A stretch of DNA of 64,000 bases from Desulfurococcus mucosus DSM 2162 (lineage in GTDB: Archaea > Thermoproteota > Thermoprotei_A > Sulfolobales > Desulfurococcaceae), in NCBI RefSeq assembly GCF_000186365.1, contig NC_014961.1:186001-250000 (forward strand). The letters are read 5' to 3'. Below are positions 14,739 to 63,116 of the stretch, in pieces. A model generated the notes under the pieces. That model made no database searches, was not told the origin of the DNA, and saw only the letters and a program-made list of their open reading frames with translations. A program made the translations under genes and the position numbers. Position 1 is the stretch's first letter. Every line of letters begins with the position of its first letter.

Positions 14739-14768
14739 TGTAAATACCGTAAATATAGCTTGTAAACA
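14739..14768. promoter_or_regulatory. three TGTAAATA-like direct repeats in the pst divergent promoter
   Basis: TGTAAATA (14739-14746), CGTAAATA (14748-14755) and TGTAAACA (14761-14768) lie in the 130 bp between the AbrB-PhoU regulator and pstS. A partial inverted copy (CTTACAGTAGG, 14771-14781) pairs with CTACCTGTAA at 14735-14744. The cluster overlaps the probable TATA box of the regulator gene, so it is a good candidate for autoregulation and control of pst. Confidence 0.5.
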
Positions 14769-14839
14769 CTCTTACAGTAGGCGATGTAATAACATGCCTG
14801 ATTTAACCATGGCGCGGTATAACACCACCCGGTGGAAGA

Positions 14840-15961
14840 ATGAGGGAGCCACTGCTACAGTCCGTTGCATTGATCACTGCAACCCTCGCCTTCTCCATAG
14901 CACTATACTTCATTATCACACCGCCGGCTGCACACCCCTACGCGCATCAAGGCTCAATAAGCAGAGTACTCAATGGAGCCGGTTCAACCCTTGCAGCACC
15001 ACAGGTGATCGAGTGGGCTAGGAGCTTCAAGGAGGCGACTGGAATAGTGGTTGAATACTCACCGGTGGGCAGCGGGGCCGGGCGAGCCATGTTCTTCAAT
15101 GGTACAGCAGTGTTCGCTGTCAGCGACCCTCCACTGGATAAGGAGACATACCTGGAGTACAAGGGCCGGGTACTCCAGTTCCCAGTGTTAGCTGGCGCGG
15201 TTGTCGTAACATACAACCTGCCCGAGATACCCAGCGGCACCCGGTTGAACCTCACGGGCGAGGTGCTTGCATTGATATATAAGGGAGAGGTATCCAGGTG
15301 GTGTGACGAGAGGATAAAGAGCATTAATCCAGCTGTAGCCGGGTTACTGCCGGACAAGGAGATAATAGTCGTCCACAGGTCGGACTCCAGCGGGACCACA
15401 CGCGTCTTCACCGGCTACCTCCACAAGGTAGCCCCCGATATATGGGGCTCGAAGCTAGTGGGCTTCACGGTGGAATGGCCTGTGGATGCAACGGGCAGGG
15501 GGCTGGGAGGCAAGGGGAATGAAGGCGTGGCCAGCATCATCAAGGCCAACCCATACTCCATAGGCTACGTGGAGGCTAGTTACGCATTATACACCGGTAT
15601 GCCTATCGCTCGGTTGATGAATAAAGCCGGCTTCTACACGGAACCCTCGAAGGAGGCCGTTCTCTCAGCCATAAACAGCGTTGTAGACCAGTTGCCTGAC
15701 ACACCGCTAGGGGACTTCAGCAGCGTACTCGACGCACTCCTCGATGCACCGGGCTCCGGCTCATATCCTATTGTAACCTTCTCATACATGTTTGTTTACA
15801 GGGACTACGGCGACCCCTACACGGCTCGGGCACTCGGGGAGTTCATAAGGTATATTCTCACACAGGGGCAGGGGATGCTCCTACCAGGCTACTACCCGCT
15901 CCCAGGGAGGGTGGTTGAGATAGGCCTCAAGGCGGTTGACGCCCTGGGGAGAGGCGGTTAG
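14840..15961 (+). CDS. pstS: phosphate ABC transporter, substrate-binding protein PstS
   Basis: 373 residues. An N-terminal hydrophobic segment (residues about 8-28) is a signal peptide or anchor. The mature part has GAGSTLAAPQVIEWARSF, YSPVGSGAGRAMF, the phosphate-binding HRSDSSGTTRVFT and GSYPIV, all typical of PstS. It captures phosphate outside the membrane and delivers it to PstCA. A GGTGG ribosome-binding site lies 5 bp before the ATG. The pstC gene starts 1 bp after the stop. Confidence 0.93.
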   Translation: MREPLLQSVALITATLAFSIALYFIITPPAAHPYAHQGSISRVLNGAGSTLAAPQVIEWARSFKEATGIVVEYSPVGSGAGRAMFFNGTAVFAVSDPPLDKETYLEYKGRVLQFPVLAGAVVVTYNLPEIPSGTRLNLTGEVLALIYKGEVSRWCDERIKSINPAVAGLLPDKEIIVVHRSDSSGTTRVFTGYLHKVAPDIWGSKLVGFTVEWPVDATGRGLGGKGNEGVASIIKANPYSIGYVEASYALYTGMPIARLMNKAGFYTEPSKEAVLSAINSVVDQLPDTPLGDFSSVLDALLDAPGSGSYPIVTFSYMFVYRDYGDPYTARALGEFIRYILTQGQGMLLPGYYPLPGRVVEIGLKAVDALGRGG

Positions 15962-52562: not shown

Positions 52563-53255
52563 CTAGTAGACTGCGAGGACTACTAGGGCCACTATGGTGG
52601 CGAAGAAGAGGACGTCGACTGAGTCAATCTCTACACGCCTTCCTCCCCCGGTGTTCCTCAAGCCCCTTACCTCTGCACTTACACCTCCCCACACGGCACG
52701 GGTGTAGTTTATGGAGAGCAGTGGGGTCAGCACTGAGGACACGCCTCTAGGCGTCAACGGTATTCTCCCATACCCTCTCTGCTTACGCATGAACATTATC
52801 TCGTCGAGATCCCTCTTGATCAACGGGATGGATCTAAGCGCGTAGGATACAGCTAACGCTACATGGTAGGGGAGGCCGATCTCCCTCACCAGCCCCCTGG
52901 CGATCTCGCTACTACTATGGGTTAATGCGAAGACCCCGCCGGCTCCAGCTATTAGCAGGAGCCTCAGCGAGACAACAGTGAACTCCTCCACAGCATGCTT
53001 CCTCACCACTATGAAGCCTGATTCGAGAACCACGTTACCCGTGTTAGCGAACACCAGGGCGTTTAGGAAGACGCCGGCCAGCCCTATGGAGGCTAGTGCT
53101 AGGAGGTAGAGCATTCTCCTACCGCCGTAGGCGAAGCCGATGGAGATGCTCACAGCTGAGGCTGCGGCAAGCCATAGCGGCTTCTTCACGAGGAACGCGG
53201 CGAGCGTCATCACCACTGCATACATGAATGTCGAGTATACATGCGGCCTCCTCAT
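52563..53255 (-). CDS. ECF transporter transmembrane component EcfT
   Basis: 230 residues with about five hydrophobic segments and two cytoplasmic Arg-Gly motifs (KQRGYGR and EVRGLR), the EcfT signature that couples to the ATPases. Its ATG overlaps the stop of the ATPase gene (ATGA). There is no S component next to it, so substrate is unknown; it may use S proteins encoded elsewhere. Confidence 0.82.
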   Translation of the reverse strand: MRRPHVYSTFMYAVVMTLAAFLVKKPLWLAAASAVSISIGFAYGGRRMLYLLALASIGLAGVFLNALVFANTGNVVLESGFIVVRKHAVEEFTVVSLRLLLIAGAGGVFALTHSSSEIARGLVREIGLPYHVALAVSYALRSIPLIKRDLDEIMFMRKQRGYGRIPLTPRGVSSVLTPLLSINYTRAVWGGVSAEVRGLRNTGGGRRVEIDSVDVLFFATIVALVVLAVY

Positions 53256-54643
53256 AACGGGACACCTGTAGCCCTATACATTGACTCAACTGCCTTACAC
53301 TTATCCTTCTCCCGTACTCTTCCATCCTCGACAACATATACTCTGTCAGCTACATCGGCTACTAGCCGCGGGTCATGGGTGCTTAAGAGTATTGAGCGCC
53401 CTCTCCCCCTGAGCTCGTTGACGAGTTTAACGAGTCCACTGTAGAGCGCGTGGTCGAGCCCGGTGGTCGGCTCATCAAGCAACATGAGATCCCTTCCATA
53501 GGCGTAGGCTACGAGGATCGACAGCCACCTCCTCTGCCCATGGCTCAAGCGGAGGGGGTGCAGGCCCTTCACGCGCTCATACCAGGGGTACATTGATGCT
53601 AGCTCCTCGAATGCCACCCTGGTTCTACGCGAGGCATCTTCAAGCTCTCTCCTAACACTTCCATGGATGAAAACAGTGTCCGGGTTCTGGGGTGCGTAGA
53701 AGAGGCCCCTGGCTGCATTAATCACCTCGCCTCCAAGCGGCTTGAGGAAGCCTGCAAGGGTCTTGAGTATCGTTGACTTACCGGAGCCGTTGGGTCCCAC
53801 GAGTGCGACTACTTCCCCCCTCCTAATGTGGATGTCGGCGTTCTCAACCAGTGGCTCCCTGTAGCCGGCGCTCAGCCCACGGGTCTCAAGGAGTACACCG
53901 CCACTGGAACCCAGTGTCTCCCTGCATTCAGGCATCTTCTCGTAGTCAGCTATCTCCTCCCCTGCGAGCTCGACTACTCTTCGCTTCCTCACAGCGTATG
54001 CTTTATCCACTAGGTCGGCGAAGTATCCCCCCTTGTGCTCCGTGAGCAGGATTACACGGCCCCTGGACTTCTCCCTTGAAACAAGCCTCCTAATGAAACC
54101 TATCCCAGCTGGGTCGAGGCTGGCGGAGGGCTCGTCGAGGATGATGATGTCGGGGTCATGTATTATTGAGAGCGTTATGGCTAGACGCTTCCTCTCCCCG
54201 CCGGACAAGTTTTCAACGTGCTCGCCGGCCTTGCCCCTTAAGCCGAGTGCATCCAGTACCTGTATAGCCTTCCTCTCGGCTTCCTCATAGCTGTACCCCC
54301 TTGCCTCCAATACGGCTATAGCCTCGTCGAGCGGTGTCGGATAAATGATCTGCCTCTCCGGGTCCTGCATGACGAACCCGAGGAAGCCTGGCAGCCTAGC
54401 ATACTCGTCACGGTGCAACGGGTTCAAGCCTTTAAGCCTCACCTCTCCCTCAACGACCCCGTTAAGGAGGTGTTTAAGGATGCCTGTAATACTTAGAAGG
54501 AACACTGTTTTACCCGACCCCGATGGCCCGGTCAACATGCATGCCTCTCCACTCCATGCCTCAAGCCTGCTGTCAACCAGGATCGGGCTGCCGGCTTCAT
54601 AGCCCGCCATCTTCACCTCGGCGTAGACGTCGCCGTGCACCAT
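53252..54643 (-). CDS. fused ECF-type ABC ATPase (two ATP-binding domains)
   Basis: 463 residues holding two ABC modules. First: Walker A GPSGSGKT, signature LSGGERKR, Walker B IIILDEPSA. Second: Walker A GPNGSGKS, motif RLSHGQRRW, Walker B LMLLDEPTT and STHDPR. This is the fused EcfA1-EcfA2 form. Domain 2 uses LSHGQ instead of LSGGQ. It forms a set with the EcfT gene. Confidence 0.9.
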   Translation of the reverse strand: MVHGDVYAEVKMAGYEAGSPILVDSRLEAWSGEACMLTGPSGSGKTVFLLSITGILKHLLNGVVEGEVRLKGLNPLHRDEYARLPGFLGFVMQDPERQIIYPTPLDEAIAVLEARGYSYEEAERKAIQVLDALGLRGKAGEHVENLSGGERKRLAITLSIIHDPDIIILDEPSASLDPAGIGFIRRLVSREKSRGRVILLTEHKGGYFADLVDKAYAVRKRRVVELAGEEIADYEKMPECRETLGSSGGVLLETRGLSAGYREPLVENADIHIRRGEVVALVGPNGSGKSTILKTLAGFLKPLGGEVINAARGLFYAPQNPDTVFIHGSVRRELEDASRRTRVAFEELASMYPWYERVKGLHPLRLSHGQRRWLSILVAYAYGRDLMLLDEPTTGLDHALYSGLVKLVNELRGRGRSILLSTHDPRLVADVADRVYVVEDGRVREKDKCKAVESMYRATGVPL

Positions 54644-56439: not shown

Positions 56440-58101
56440 TTAAGCCGAGCCAGGCTCCTCCACAATGTTCAACACTGGTGCGTCTGCGCCCTGCAGGGTT
56501 TCCAGGGTGACACGTGCCCTCCTATCCCCTGTCGAGAGCTCTAGTGGGAGTATGGAGCCAGCTGTGTAGACCTGGTTGGCGAGCACTATGCTGGCGTAGA
56601 GCTTGGAGTATAGGCCGTCAGCGTTCAGCGGCCTATTCCTGTGGCCAATATATATGCAGGTGGCCCTCTCCTTGCAGACGTTCAGGGTTATCCAGGCGTT
56701 ATACGCCTTCTTATCCGCTGTAACGAGCACCACCCTGTCCTCGCTGAGGCTCTGCTCGACGACGGCTATGGAGGCCTCGCAGGGCTGGCTCACGGCGGGC
56801 AGGTGGATCCCCCTATAGTACTGTTTGATCTCGTCAACAGCCCTGTTGGCTAGTAAAGCCATGACGTACGAGTACCTTGAGATCCCCGTGGTCTCACTGG
56901 ATACGCCTGCAACCTTACCGTTTATCTCGGCTTCGGCGCAGACCGGGATGTACACCCTGATCCCCTCGACGGGGCTCCACGGCCTCCCATTCCTTATACT
57001 GGCCTTCAACAACGTCATATGTAACCCCTGGTAGAACATGTTGGTGTCGGGGAGTAGGGCTACTGGTTTTCCCAGCCTCCTATGCATGTCGAGGAGGAGG
57101 CTGTGCAGCTTCCACCCCTCGTAGTCCCTGGAGCCATGTCCCTCGATCTCCCTTGCTATTAAGTCGACTGCACCAGTATACCTCTGGATCTGCATGAGTA
57201 TCCTCTCGATCGACGACCTGTCTGCATCCGGGTGGCTTCCACACACGATGTCGGCGAGCACCCTCCAGTTACCCATCATCATGTTAACGGAGTCCTCGTC
57301 AGGCCCCTCAACGGGTTTAAGCGAGACAAGCCTCTTTCTCTCACCGTTCACCGGGTTCAACGCGTTGACAGTGAGCACCGGTGAATCCTCGGAGACATCC
57401 CTCCTAGCCTCGCTTGTGAGCCTCTCAGCAATCCTGACGTCTGCAAGCCTGTTGAAAACCTGCGAGACATCCTCGAAAACCCCTTTAGTCCCCCTCCACG
57501 CTATCTTTTTCTCGAGGAGGCCTTGTTCACGCACCCCTCTCCCAGCGCCTCCTTCACCGGGCTCGGCTACACCTCCATCCTCATATACGTAGACCCTGTG
57601 GATCCATCTAGGGCTACCCGGGTACTGGGGCAGCCCGGGTAACGGTATTGCGTCAACATATGTGTAGGTTATGGAGCTGGGCCCCATCTTGCTCAACGTG
57701 CCTTGAAGCGTTATGGCAAATGGGCCTGTTGTAAGCGAGAGGTCCACGTATATCTTCTTAACCATCCCGCTAATGCTCTTCACAAGGTGCTCTAGTACAA
57801 TGGAGTTCTCGAACACGCTGTCGCGCAGTATGCTTCTCGCCACAGCGTGATCCACGTACACGTTGATGCCGCGGGCTGCACCCGGCTCCTGGGAGAGTGA
57901 TTGATACACGTCGTCAACCAGCTCCCTCCTCGTTAAAACTATGAAGTCACGGATCCCCAGCTCCTCGCTAAGCCTGTTGACGACCGTGGCAGTGTTCCAG
58001 GGGTGTGTTGAAACCGGAATGACTGAGACCTCTCCACTGGTGAAGCCCTTGGACTCGAGGAAATCTATCAACTGGTAAACGAAGCCGTCTCCACCACTCA
58101 T
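56440..58101 (-). CDS. possible CARF-like sensor fused to PIN ribonuclease
   Basis: About 553 residues from ATG 58101; an ATG further up at 58230 exists but would overlap the divergent gene. Residues 1-170 form a Rossmann-like domain: VIPVSTHPWNTATVV, DFIVLT, and VDLSLTTGPFAITLQGTLS, similar to the DLTGGTKPM segment of CARF domains. After a linker, the C-terminal part has a PIN-domain set: LLPDTNMFY, AEAEING and VTADKKAY supply the acidic residues. A ligand-activated ribonuclease would fit. No CRISPR array or cas gene is in the window. PIN call is firmer than CARF. Confidence 0.65.
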   Translation of the reverse strand: MSGGDGFVYQLIDFLESKGFTSGEVSVIPVSTHPWNTATVVNRLSEELGIRDFIVLTRRELVDDVYQSLSQEPGAARGINVYVDHAVARSILRDSVFENSIVLEHLVKSISGMVKKIYVDLSLTTGPFAITLQGTLSKMGPSSITYTYVDAIPLPGLPQYPGSPRWIHRVYVYEDGGVAEPGEGGAGRGVREQGLLEKKIAWRGTKGVFEDVSQVFNRLADVRIAERLTSEARRDVSEDSPVLTVNALNPVNGERKRLVSLKPVEGPDEDSVNMMMGNWRVLADIVCGSHPDADRSSIERILMQIQRYTGAVDLIAREIEGHGSRDYEGWKLHSLLLDMHRRLGKPVALLPDTNMFYQGLHMTLLKASIRNGRPWSPVEGIRVYIPVCAEAEINGKVAGVSSETTGISRYSYVMALLANRAVDEIKQYYRGIHLPAVSQPCEASIAVVEQSLSEDRVVLVTADKKAYNAWITLNVCKERATCIYIGHRNRPLNADGLYSKLYASIVLANQVYTAGSILPLELSTGDRRARVTLETLQGADAPVLNIVEEPGSA

Positions 58102-58171
58102 GGAAACCTCTCCCTGCGTCCACCACTCATAGCTATTGGATCCATGGGTTAAATACTTGGAACAGTAATCT

Positions 58172-58882
58172 ATGGAGAGGGAGCCGGGCGTGATAGCCGT
58201 GGAGGAGTGTGAAAGAGTTAAAGCATACATTGAGAACGTTGAGCAGGCCCTTCAACAAGTAGGCTCCCAGGGGCTTCAACCAGTGCAAGAATACATAGTG
58301 GAGCTCGCCAGAGAGTACACTAGTGACGCAAAGTACTATCTCGAGAAAAACGACTGCTTCACCAGCCTCGCATGCATAGCCTATGCTGAAGGACTCCTGG
58401 ACTCCCTGAGGCATCAGGGTGCTGTATCATTCAACTGGAGGCCTCTCACAGAGCTACTTGGGAGGCCACGTGTACTGGTTGCAGGCAGCTTCGAGCTCCT
58501 GCACCCTGGACACATACACCTGCTTAGAAGGGCATGGGAGCTTGGGAGAGTATACGTGGTGGTTTCCAGGGACAGTAATTTCGAGAGATTCAAGGGGAGG
58601 AGACCCGTGGTGGGTGAGAAAGACAGGTTGACAGTAGTGGAGAACGTGAGGTACGTGTCGAAGGCGGTTCTCGGCGATGAAGAAGACTTCCTGAAGCCCC
58701 TGGAAGAGTTGAAGCCCGACATAGTGTTGCTCGGCCCAGATCAATGGATCTCCCCGGGCGAGTTGAAGAAGCTCCTAGAGGAGAGGGGTTTAAGCAGAGT
58801 AAGGGTTGAGAAACTCGAGTCCAGGATAGGTGAGTGGAGCTCCAGCGGGATCATTGAGAAGGTGAAGAGAGAGTATTGTTAA
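58172..58882 (+). CDS. DUF357 plus cytidylyltransferase-fold protein
   Basis: 236 residues. Residues 1-85 match the helical DUF357 (RVKAYIENVEQAL, YYLEKNDCFTSLACIAYAEGLLDSL as a guide to positions 12-80). The rest is a nucleotidyltransferase with VAGSFELLHPGHIHLLRRA, GEKDRL and LLGPDQW. The fold fits archaeal FAD synthases and pantetheine-phosphate enzymes. ATG 58172 lies near a TATA-like box; GTG 58190 has GGAGAGGGAG before it and is an alternative. Confidence 0.8.
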   Translation: MEREPGVIAVEECERVKAYIENVEQALQQVGSQGLQPVQEYIVELAREYTSDAKYYLEKNDCFTSLACIAYAEGLLDSLRHQGAVSFNWRPLTELLGRPRVLVAGSFELLHPGHIHLLRRAWELGRVYVVVSRDSNFERFKGRRPVVGEKDRLTVVENVRYVSKAVLGDEEDFLKPLEELKPDIVLLGPDQWISPGELKKLLEERGLSRVRVEKLESRIGEWSSSGIIEKVKREYC

Positions 58883-58991: not shown

Positions 58992-59711
58992 CTAGTCTTT
59001 AGAGAGATCCTCAAGCATCCCGATCCTCCTCTCCCTTTCAGCTACCTCAGTAGCCGTGTACCTGCGTGCTAGTTCAGCCAGCTCCTTGACGTCGACCAGT
59101 GGATTATACCCTATGTGCTCATAGCTCATTAGAGCCCTCGCGGTTTTAGCCGCGATGTATCCCACGTTATAGGAGTCTCGGAGAGCCTGCTCATCCCTGG
59201 TTATGTCCTCGAGGTGGCTGTAAGCCATGCTCCACGGGATGACGTGCGCACCCATGCTGCTCATCACTATCGCCAGGTAGGATATAGCCATCATGACCCC
59301 GCTGTCTAGACCCGTAGCTATGAACCCTGCCACCTTACCCTCCAAGAGGCTTCTCCCCTTGTGGAATATCATGTGCTCCATGCTCGTCAACCTATCTATG
59401 AAGTTCTTTAGAACACCGCTGGGGGCGTACCAGTAGACTGGCGTGGATATTATGACGCCATGCGACTCCAGGAGTTTCCCTGCAAGCGTGTTGAAGTCAT
59501 CGTCCTTGATGACGCATGGGAACCTACAGTACTTGTTGCCGTCTGAGACGCATCCCATGCAGGGCTTTATCCTGTAGTCGTAGAGGCTCACGATCTCAGG
59601 GATCCCCCCGGCGTCGACTACTCCCTTAGCCGCTACGATGGATAGCTGCATGGATGAACCATACTTGCGTGGCGAGCCATTAATGACCAGTATCCGTGGC
59701 TTCCCATCCAT
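58992..59711 (-). CDS. flavodoxin-fold NADPH-dependent FMN reductase/iron-sulfur flavoprotein
   Basis: 239 residues. Flavin-binding loop INGSPRKYGSS is at the start and STPVYWYAPSGVLKNFIDR in the middle. CMGCVSDGNKYCRFPC provides four Cys that could hold a 4Fe-4S cluster, as in the iron-sulfur flavoprotein group. An electron-transfer or quinone/peroxide reducing role is expected. Confidence 0.83.
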   Translation of the reverse strand: MDGKPRILVINGSPRKYGSSMQLSIVAAKGVVDAGGIPEIVSLYDYRIKPCMGCVSDGNKYCRFPCVIKDDDFNTLAGKLLESHGVIISTPVYWYAPSGVLKNFIDRLTSMEHMIFHKGRSLLEGKVAGFIATGLDSGVMMAISYLAIVMSSMGAHVIPWSMAYSHLEDITRDEQALRDSYNVGYIAAKTARALMSYEHIGYNPLVDVKELAELARRYTATEVAERERRIGMLEDLSKD

Positions 59712-60317: not shown

Positions 60318-60385
60318 GGAATCCTAGTGAACGTTCATGAACTCTTAAAAAGGTTCACCGAGATACCGGCTCCACGGTGGCAGCT

Positions 60386-61093
60386 ATGAGGGTTAGACAA
60401 CTAGTTGAGGCAGCAGTATTCACGGTTCTAGTGTACGCGGCGACAGTAGTGCTCCAAGTGTATCAGCCTGTTACAGGAGGATACTTCAACCTAGGTGAAT
60501 CCATGATATATGTTGCAGCTCTTTCATCAGGACCACTGGTAGCGGGGATCGCCGGCGGGGTCGGCGCGGCACTAGCCGATCTCACGACGGGATACCAGGT
60601 TTTCGCACCGGGTACACTTGTGATAAAGCTCGCCGAGGGCGTTGCAGCCGGCTACCTGGCCAGGGCGTTGAGATCCAGGCACTGGAGGATTGCAGGGGGG
60701 CTCATAGGCTCAGCGTATGCAGCAGTGTTCACGGGCTTCGCACTGACACTGTATGCTGGGACAATAGAGGTGGGTCCCTCAGGGCTCGAGGTCTATGTTC
60801 CATGGTACATCTGGCTGCTTGCAGGGCTCGCCCTAGGCTTCATCCTAGTGTACTCACTGCTCTCCGGGCGTAGCAGTGCAGGGGAGGCAATAGCATTGAT
60901 AACCAGCGGCCTCATAATGGTTGCAGGCTACTTCCTCTACGAGTACTTCGTCTCAAACCCGCTTACAGGTAGGCCGCCGATAGACGCTGTCTTCGAGATC
61001 CCGGTGAACATAGGGCAGGTGGTTACAGGCATCGTGGTAGCATTACCTGTGGCAGCATGGCTTAGGAGAGCTGGGTACATTGAGGCTGGCTAA
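60386..61093 (+). CDS. ECF transporter substrate-binding S component
   Basis: 235 residues from ATG 60386 (GTG 60377 is possible). Six membrane segments with YFNLGESMIYVAALSSGP, GGVGAALADLTTGY and APGTLVIKLAEG, patterns of vitamin S components. Substrate is unknown. The next gene, an ECF ATPase, begins 35 bp later, forming a full S-A-T set. Confidence 0.82.
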   Translation: MRVRQLVEAAVFTVLVYAATVVLQVYQPVTGGYFNLGESMIYVAALSSGPLVAGIAGGVGAALADLTTGYQVFAPGTLVIKLAEGVAAGYLARALRSRHWRIAGGLIGSAYAAVFTGFALTLYAGTIEVGPSGLEVYVPWYIWLLAGLALGFILVYSLLSGRSSAGEAIALITSGLIMVAGYFLYEYFVSNPLTGRPPIDAVFEIPVNIGQVVTGIVVALPVAAWLRRAGYIEAG

Positions 61094-61128
61094 CACCTCG
61101 GCGAGAGAAACAGTCAAAGTGAACAGTG

Positions 61129-62412
61129 ATGCTCGAGGCACATGTAAGGGTCGCTGGCTACAGGGACGGCTTCACGATCAGGAACCTGGATTTAAGGGTG
61201 CAGGATGGGGAAGCCCTCATCGTCACAGGGCCCTCGGGTAGCGGTAAGACAACGCTCATAAGGGTTTTAACCGGGGTGCTTGACAGGATCGGAGGGTTCC
61301 TCGACGGGGAGGTAATCATCGATGGCCAACCCGTCTCAGCTATGGAGCCGTGGAGGATATACGAGCTGGTAGCGTATATTCCTCAGGAGCCATGGTATGC
61401 TTTAATAGGGTACACCGTGCACTCAGAGTACTGTTATGCTCTCTCACAGCTAGGGGTGAGATGTGATCACACGTCTCTTGAAAAACTGGGTCTCCGCGGT
61501 AAACTAGACTCCTTAACCGTCAACCTGAGTGCTGGCGAGACACAGAGGCTTATATGGGCTGAGGCGTTTGCGAGAAGGTACCGCGTACTAATACTCGACG
61601 AGCCACTAGTATACCTCGATGATGAAGCCAGGGGGACGGTGGCTAAAGCGGCTTGGGAGGCGCTTGCACACGGTGCCTCACTAGTGGTCGTCGACCACGA
61701 CCCATGGTTTTGGCGGGGTATGCCGGGTAAACTACTCGTCATGGAGAACGGGGCAGCCAAGTACTACGGGGAGTGGAGTGATGAAGCCCTTGCGAGGGTT
61801 GAAGAGCCAGAGGTGTATAGGAGGAGGACTGGGAGCGGGGTAGCGGTCGAGGTGGAAAACCTGTGGTTCAAGTATCCTGGTGAGAAACCATTATTCAAGG
61901 GAGTCAGCTTCACCATTGAGAAGTCCTCGCTCGCCGGGCTAACGGGGAGGAATGGGGCGGGTAAGACAACGCTCCTGAAGCTCATGGCCGGGGTACTGAA
62001 GCCTTTGAAGGGCAGTGTGAGAAGGTTCGGCCGGGCCACATACATACCTGAGAACCCCTTGCTCTACTTCACGAAGCCGACGCCCAGGGAGGAGTTGCTT
62101 TACGCTGCGGGAGGCGGGGTCGACGCGGTTGAGGAGGCTGTGGAATTATTCAATCTAGCCGGGGTCCTCGACAGGCCTCTCGCCAAGCTTAGTTCAGGGG
62201 AGAGGAGGAGGCTTGCCCTGGCCTCAGCCTATCTAGGCGGCTTCGACATATACCTGGTTGACGAGCCGACAGGCGGCCTGGATCAAGCTAACGCTGTGAG
62301 AGTCCTCGACGCTTTAACACGGCTCGTTGAAAACGGCGGGACAGTTGTTGTCGCCACACATGATAAAAGAGTTGTAAGCCTCCTCGACGACGATATAAGG
62401 GTTGGTGACTGA
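61129..62412 (+). CDS. fused ECF-type ABC ATPase (two ATP-binding domains)
   Basis: 427 residues from ATG 61129. First module: Walker A GPSGSGKT, NLSAGETQRL signature, Walker B LILDEPL. Second: Walker A GRNGAGKT, KLSSGERRRL, Walker B YLVDEPTGG. The stop overlaps the next ATG (TGATG). Both signature motifs differ slightly from LSGGQ. Confidence 0.88.
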   Translation: MLEAHVRVAGYRDGFTIRNLDLRVQDGEALIVTGPSGSGKTTLIRVLTGVLDRIGGFLDGEVIIDGQPVSAMEPWRIYELVAYIPQEPWYALIGYTVHSEYCYALSQLGVRCDHTSLEKLGLRGKLDSLTVNLSAGETQRLIWAEAFARRYRVLILDEPLVYLDDEARGTVAKAAWEALAHGASLVVVDHDPWFWRGMPGKLLVMENGAAKYYGEWSDEALARVEEPEVYRRRTGSGVAVEVENLWFKYPGEKPLFKGVSFTIEKSSLAGLTGRNGAGKTTLLKLMAGVLKPLKGSVRRFGRATYIPENPLLYFTKPTPREELLYAAGGGVDAVEEAVELFNLAGVLDRPLAKLSSGERRRLALASAYLGGFDIYLVDEPTGGLDQANAVRVLDALTRLVENGGTVVVATHDKRVVSLLDDDIRVGD

Positions 62413-63116
62413 TGGGGGTCCTCGGCTGGCTGGTCGCAATCGTCTACAAGGCGCTCTTCCTGAAGGGTGATACAGGGTTCAAGCAGGCTCACTGGGTGGT
62501 TAAGGCACTGCACTTGACACTGGTCTCCATGGCTATCCTGAGCGGCAACCCACTCGTGTACACTGGGGCGTTTACACTATTCATCTTGCTCGGCTTACTA
62601 TCACCTGGATACGAGTGGGCTGCGTCAACACTGATACTGTCCTCGCTGATCTCAATATACATGTCTGCCACAGCACTCATCGCCTCCCTCGCCGGGGTCG
62701 CCCCGATCACCTTGACGGATGCAGTGTTAATCGCGTTGAAGACTGCATCGCTCTCAACAATGCTCGCCTTCTCATTCATAATTATCTCACCGCTAGAGAT
62801 ATCATCGCTCCTCATCAAGCTGGGCGCCGGGAGGCTGGCAGCCCTCCCGTTGCTCACATGGAGGCTCATGCCCCTCGGGCTCAAGACGTTTGTTGAAAGC
62901 CTCCAGATAGGCAGGGTTAAGGGTGAGCGTGTCTCAGCAAGGATACCGCCCGCTGTAGCCGGCTTGATGGAGGCAGGCGGCTTCATTGAAGAATACTGTT
63001 TCCACAGGCTGAGCACCGGGGCCAAGCACCCTGTGCTCCCATACTACTCGTCGAAGTATACTCTTATACTGCTCGCAGGGGACTTAGCTATCGCTCTACT
63101 CCTCTACTATGCTTAA
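62412..63116 (+). CDS. EcfT-like transmembrane component
   Basis: 234 residues with five or so hydrophobic segments. The cytoplasmic segments (WRLMPLGLKTFVESLQIGRVKGE and a later EAGGFIEEY) resemble a divergent EcfT coupling region; the Arg-Gly signature is less clear than in the protein at 52563. Position after S and fused A genes supports the call. Confidence 0.75.
   Translation: MGVLGWLVAIVYKALFLKGDTGFKQAHWVVKALHLTLVSMAILSGNPLVYTGAFTLFILLGLLSPGYEWAASTLILSSLISIYMSATALIASLAGVAPITLTDAVLIALKTASLSTMLAFSFIIISPLEISSLLIKLGAGRLAALPLLTWRLMPLGLKTFVESLQIGRVKGERVSARIPPAVAGLMEAGGFIEEYCFHRLSTGAKHPVLPYYSSKYTLILLAGDLAIALLLYYA

Follow-up and report, generated by a model that had tools for sequence, protein, structure and literature searches.

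Proteins that fuse a CARF sensor domain to a nuclease are normally viewed as receivers of a message from Cas10. Csx1/Csm6, Can1/Can2/Card1, and Cami1 exemplify this design; they are encoded with type III CRISPR systems, are activated by cOA, and carry HEPN, PD-(D/E)xK, and RelE nucleases rather than PIN nucleases (PMC11229360). SiRe_0806 from Sulfolobus islandicus joins a CARF domain, a linker, and a PIN domain, and it has been solved both as the apo protein (9jxw) and with cA4 (9jxx), indicating that a CARF-PIN fold related to the one described below can bind cA4. Sulfolobaceae relatives of SiRe_0806 match the PADLOC profile CARF_m3--CARF_PIN (PDLC01982).

A basic residue after strand 4, within the signature [DN]X[ST]XXX[RK], is typical of CARF domains, albeit not universal (PMC4012209). 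For instance, RtcR and RV2818 mostly lack the strand-4 lysine or arginine, an absence that was taken to point to different ligands (PMC4012209). The CARF domain of RtcR binds 5' tRNA halves that end in a 2',3'-cyclic phosphate (PMC7790460).

Here, we describe a CARF-PIN gene from Desulfurococcus mucosus DSM 2162, whose chromosome consists of one contig of 1,314,639 bp. The gene occupies positions 56440 to 58101 of the window, by which we mean the whole 64-kb stretch of DNA that was analyzed; it lies on the reverse strand, as do all of the features of the gene given below. Its product is a CARF-nuclease fusion, as are the type III effectors listed above. Like RtcR (PMC4012209), it has a divergent CARF domain without the strand-4 basic residue and is found outside CRISPR loci; unlike RtcR, which fuses CARF to AAA+ and HTH domains and has no nuclease, it ends in a PIN domain. 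The protein is not of a new kind, since its family was already catalogued and the structure of a relative is available with cA4. What sets it apart, we propose, is the decoupling from Cas10 of a sensor that has been retained but altered.

The CARF-PIN gene and its predicted fold

As judged from its sequence, the open reading frame is real, and it encodes 553 amino acids followed by a stop codon. The purine-rich, Shine-Dalgarno-like sequence GGGAGAGGTTTCC lies directly before the ATG at 58101 and is a plausible ribosome-binding site for the gene. These coordinates, already given in a preliminary description of this DNA, fit better than the longest mechanical open reading frame, which runs to 58230 and overlaps the 5' end of the divergent gene. 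In an alignment of 20 homologues, residues D120, G126, D352, E390, E392, E442, and D463 are invariant, so the motifs that contain them are not chance resemblances.

Residues 4 to 550 match positions 3 to 532 of the 533-position PADLOC profile CARF_m12--CARF_PIN (PDLC01979) with 930 bits (E = 7.8e-281). Since the match spans the full length, the protein belongs to a family whose CARF-PIN architecture had already been catalogued, and in architecture and length we see no family-level difference from it. PADLOC lists CARF_m12--CARF_PIN as a candidate defense protein, whereas the window gene has no CRISPR link. The CARF_m3 models, in contrast, reach only 22 to 32 bits against the window protein, and only on the PIN part, which places it outside the SiRe_0806-type m3 profiles at the level of sequence. 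Likewise, a profile of the window family showed no significant whole-length similarity to Sulfolobaceae CARF-PIN proteins. Pfam and NCBIfam profile searches assigned no family to the protein, and a PDB sequence search with the family profile returned nothing useful.

An AlphaFold2 model built from 16 sequences (pLDDT, 85.6; pTM, 0.88) has SiRe_0806 as its best structural match by far when used as a Foldseek query (E, 4e-8). VIA-align superposed the two over 369 residues with a Z score of 17.8 at about 11% identity, as evidence that the model shares the overall CARF-linker-PIN fold of SiRe_0806. The structural matches that follow are CARF domains on residues 21 to 180 and PIN domains on residues 340 to 510; among the matches listed, CARF structures rank first and no SAVED structure appears. 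The profile match and the predicted structure together support CARF and PIN folds in this protein. The preliminary description, which had claimed an N-terminal CARF domain and a C-terminal PIN domain, was therefore right in its domain call, but it overlooked the prior cataloguing of such proteins (PADLOC m1, m3, and m12) and the relative solved with cA4.

Sensor pocket and nuclease active site

The Rossmann-like CARF sensor domain comprises residues 22 to 176 or thereabouts (57574 to 58038), as delimited by alignment of the model to CARF structures. A comparison of the predicted fold with such structures, proposed in the preliminary description, indicated a CARF-like fold: this part of the model aligns with Card1, VC1899, Can2, Csm6, Csa3, and Cad1 over 120 to 147 residues with Z scores of about 9 to 11.5. 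Additionally, hhalign aligned it with the canonical CARF domain of a CARF-PIN protein from genome G053 (locus L081).

The strand-4 motif, VDLSLTTGPFA (residues 119 to 129; 57715 to 57747), departs from the CARF signature. In 20 of 20 aligned m12 proteins, the D-x-S/T element is kept and no lysine or arginine occurs within residues 120 to 134, so the full signature with its basic residue is absent from the window protein. SiRe_0806, in contrast, has PGRK after strand 4, and a canonical VDVTGGTK occupies the place of the motif in L081. Because RtcR and RV2818 also mostly lack the basic residue, its absence weakens the claim for the usual ligand and not the assignment to CARF. The parallel with RtcR, a resemblance rather than a test, leads us to propose a nucleotide or RNA-end ligand; RNA fragments with cyclic phosphate ends are one candidate signal. 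CARF pockets without the strand-4 basic residue may employ other residues.

A linker domain (residues 195 to 344, approximately; 57070 to 57519) is delimited by the secondary structure of the model, and the structural alignment with SiRe_0806 runs through it. The PIN domain follows at about residues 345 to 517 (56551 to 57069), as evidenced by structural matches to 5f4h, 3i8o, 3ix7, and 2hww (Z, 8.8 to 11.7) and by an hhalign match to the CARF_m3 PIN domain (E = 2e-14). Of its acidic residues, those of PDTN (residues 351 to 354, with D352; 57040 to 57051), AEAE (residues 389 to 392, with E390 and E392; 56926 to 56937), and TADK (residues 461 to 464, with D463; 56710 to 56721) had been recognized earlier and are indeed invariant, but a fourth acid had been overlooked, namely, the equally invariant E442 in CEAS (C441 and E442; 56776 to 56781). 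This is the third acidic PIN position, which reads C-D in CARF_m3. In the two CARF_m3 proteins compared, an acid is located four residues after a cysteine; the equivalent of this position, counted from C388 in the window protein, is E392, and so E392 rather than E390 is probably the catalytic acid. The PIN fold and its four acids, D352, E392, E442, and D463, are present, and the domain probably cuts RNA.

Relationship to CRISPR loci

The window contains no CRISPR-type repeats within its 64 kb, and searches of the host genome for Cas1, Cas7, Cas10, and RAMP gave no match inside it, in agreement with the earlier claim that it holds neither an array nor a cas gene. Elsewhere in the host genome, about 725 kb from the CARF-PIN gene, an array of 45 repeats is accompanied by cas1 and by a cas7 of the DevR type. 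The D. mucosus genome paper describes three CRISPR repeat regions (PMC3111991); the one array examined here is that by cas1. No gene for Cas10 or RAMP was found in the host genome or its two congeners, and thus, with Cas10 in neither locus nor genome, the protein does not fit, by genomic context, the definition of a type III ancillary effector in this host.

Homologues were surveyed for CRISPR co-occurrence, as the preliminary description had suggested. Cas10 is missing from 17 of the 23 genomes that carry the gene, and both Cas10 and RAMP are missing from 14. Seven carriers have none of Cas1, Cas7, Cas10, and RAMP; these include the closed genomes G001 and G027, and the set also contains incomplete MAGs. 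Cas10 occurs in 6 of 23 carriers and in 5 of 14 noncarriers, which is no association (Fisher p = 0.71). For cas1, the corresponding counts are 12 of 23 and 2 of 14 (p = 0.035), a weak excess that is uncorrected for multiple tests or relatedness. The cas1 excess and the six carriers with Cas10 suggest that a CRISPR link may exist in part of the family.

The CARF-PIN protein of G053 offers a contrast. Its alignment with the m12 profile spans 392 columns and covers both CARF and PIN (E = 6e-7), and, unlike the window gene, its gene (L081:13031-14752, reverse strand) combines the canonical strand-4 motif with a position 24 kb from Cas10 that has a CRISPR array on either side. The arrays have 19 and 14 repeats, and a small PIN-like open reading frame adjoins the gene (14766 to 15206).

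Potential messenger-making enzymes were also sought. Neither DAC nor GGDEF domains were matched in the 37 genomes searched, of which 23 belong to the host's family. SMODS models gave weak, uninformative matches in open reading frames of 466 to 499 amino acids in nearly all genomes; these most likely represent the CCA-adding enzyme.

Genomic neighborhood

In the window, the CARF-PIN gene is flanked by an amino acid permease gene and by a divergent gene (58172 to 58882) for a DUF357 domain fused to a cytidylyltransferase-like domain. The preliminary description had pointed to this pairing, which did not hold up among homologues: the two genes adjoin only in three Desulfurococcus genomes and are 6 to 7 kb apart in three Thermosphaera-like genomes, whereas an FMN-reductase-like gene (58992 to 59711 in the window) stays beside the DUF357-cytidylyltransferase gene in six of six genomes. 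Because the adjacency is limited to one genus and the stable pair is with the FMN-reductase-like gene, we rejected the DUF357-cytidylyltransferase as a functional partner. The nearby gene for the S component of an ECF riboflavin transporter (60377 to 61093) makes a flavin role likelier than messenger synthesis for this protein; these three genes look like a flavin cluster, in which it is possibly an FAD synthase. Two ECF-type transporter sets flank the CARF-PIN gene (52563 to 54643 and 60377 to 63116), with ATPases and a CbiQ-like or putative T component. The 70-bp divergent gap contains a single TATA-like element, TTAAATACTT (58145 to 58158), and since a similar element is present in a congener (L028), the two divergent genes may share a promoter region.

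In other genera, genes for a helical protein of about 95 amino acids, a protein of about 100 amino acids, and a membrane protein occur near the CARF-PIN gene. The first of these adjoins or neighbors it in 15 genomes, in varying orientation. The three form a cassette of their own, seen here only in this archaeal family (L102:4237-6382, L104:4886-6601, L108:5802-7953, and L034:6186-7686), and the cassette is also found away from CARF-PIN genes (G018, G006, G005, G009, and G004); its two small proteins were thus rejected as obligatory partners. The protein of about 100 amino acids is an alpha/beta protein with a conserved VNG motif, and the cassette has no Pfam family. Among the genomes surveyed, the CARF-PIN gene has no conserved partner gene or defense neighbors; the lack of a conserved partner argues for a one-gene sensor-effector.

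Distribution and selection

Of the 37 genomes from the host's family, 23 have a CARF_m12-PIN gene. When 398 genomes from across the phylum were scanned, full-length matches were confined to that family, with short partial matches elsewhere, mostly to the PIN part. Named records with members include Thermogladius, Staphylothermus, and Desulfurococcales MAGs. The gene is single copy in nearly all carriers, and its distribution within one archaeal family is nonmobile; synteny and identity suggest that it is apparently a resident chromosomal gene with vertical inheritance. The family as a whole does not require it, given its absence from 14 of the 37 genomes, some of which are near complete.

Pairwise dN/dS estimates point to constraint on both domains. 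For the two closed, Cas10-less genomes G027 and G019 (L031/L032), dN/dS is 0.03 to 0.05 for CARF codons, where dS exceeds 1 and the estimate is rough, and 0.01 to 0.02 for PIN codons. The L033/L037 pair has a CARF dN/dS of 0.05 to 0.07, and a Cas10-bearing pair (L034/L035) has values of 0.09 to 0.12 for CARF and 0.04 to 0.06 for PIN. Because CARF dN/dS is lower in the first two pairs than in the Cas10-bearing pair, there is no sign of relaxation, and these codon comparisons indicate that the sensor is maintained by selection without Cas10. The PIN domain is more conserved than the CARF domain (e.g., 92% versus 63% identity between L030 and L032).

Possible function

We give somewhat better than even credence to the view that the gene encodes a single-gene, ligand-gated ribonuclease that would respond to a nucleotide or RNA-end signal not derived from Cas10. 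The stand-alone sensor-ribonuclease put forward in the preliminary description agrees with the domains and with the lack of a nearby CRISPR locus. In this model, the CARF domain at the N terminus, which probably dimerizes, would bind the signal and switch on the C-terminal PIN nuclease, which would cut cellular RNA and bring about growth arrest or stress adaptation. The architecture is common to cOA-binding CARF-PIN proteins, and dependence on type III CRISPR would have been lost in this family. As selection has kept the gene in archaea without Cas10, it probably answers another signal, and most likely that signal is not made by Cas10.

Three other readings deserve consideration. An orphan receptor that still answers cOA, whether this is made by an incoming element or by a type III system present only intermittently in the population, and that is retained between such episodes would account for the cA4 bound to SiRe_0806, for the six carriers with Cas10, and for the G053 protein, where a canonical strand-4 motif and a related PIN domain are encoded between CRISPR arrays 24 kb from Cas10. 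We nevertheless regard this reading as unlikely, because Cas10 is not in excess among carriers, the gene is unlinked to CRISPR loci, the strand-4 basic residue is missing, and purifying selection is strong in a closed, Cas10-less pair whose CARF synonymous divergence exceeds 1.

Alternatively, the PIN domain might act constitutively on a specific RNA in housekeeping RNA processing, with a CARF domain that merely dimerizes or positions the RNA. A nonmobile, mostly single-copy gene of one family, with no defense neighbors and with a PIN domain more conserved than its CARF domain, would suit such a role; yet the gene is absent from 14 of 37 family genomes, some near complete, the CARF domain is likewise under strong purifying selection, and the CARF nucleases characterized so far are ligand activated (PMC11229360), so we consider the idea rather improbable. 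The survey largely refutes a VapBC-like module, which now seems very improbable: the PIN domain could be a toxin, and the helical protein of about 95 amino acids, which 15 genomes encode beside or close to CARF-PIN, or the DUF357-cytidylyltransferase could be its antitoxin, but the latter adjoins it in one genus only, and the former belongs to a cassette that also occurs away from CARF-PIN and varies in its orientation to it.

Beyond the favored ligand-gated ribonuclease, we tentatively suggest, at a little short of an even chance, that an alarm pathway independent of CRISPR operates in Desulfurococcaceae, with a CARF domain that senses a nucleotide or broken-RNA ligand and triggers the PIN ribonuclease, a general stress or antiviral switch that either outlived type III signaling or arose apart from it. 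If true, hyperthermophilic archaea would be expected to have a new messenger or RNA damage signal, and RtcR, which is itself a stand-alone CARF protein and whose ligand is known, would gain a nuclease counterpart. Closed genomes without Cas10, two of them without any searched cas family, provide a clean setting for studying non-CRISPR CARF sensing. A CARF_m3-PIN gene in another closed genome without a Cas10 match (G156, L083:9271-10737, reverse strand) is located amid housekeeping-looking genes and is a candidate for a second CRISPR-independent CARF nuclease.
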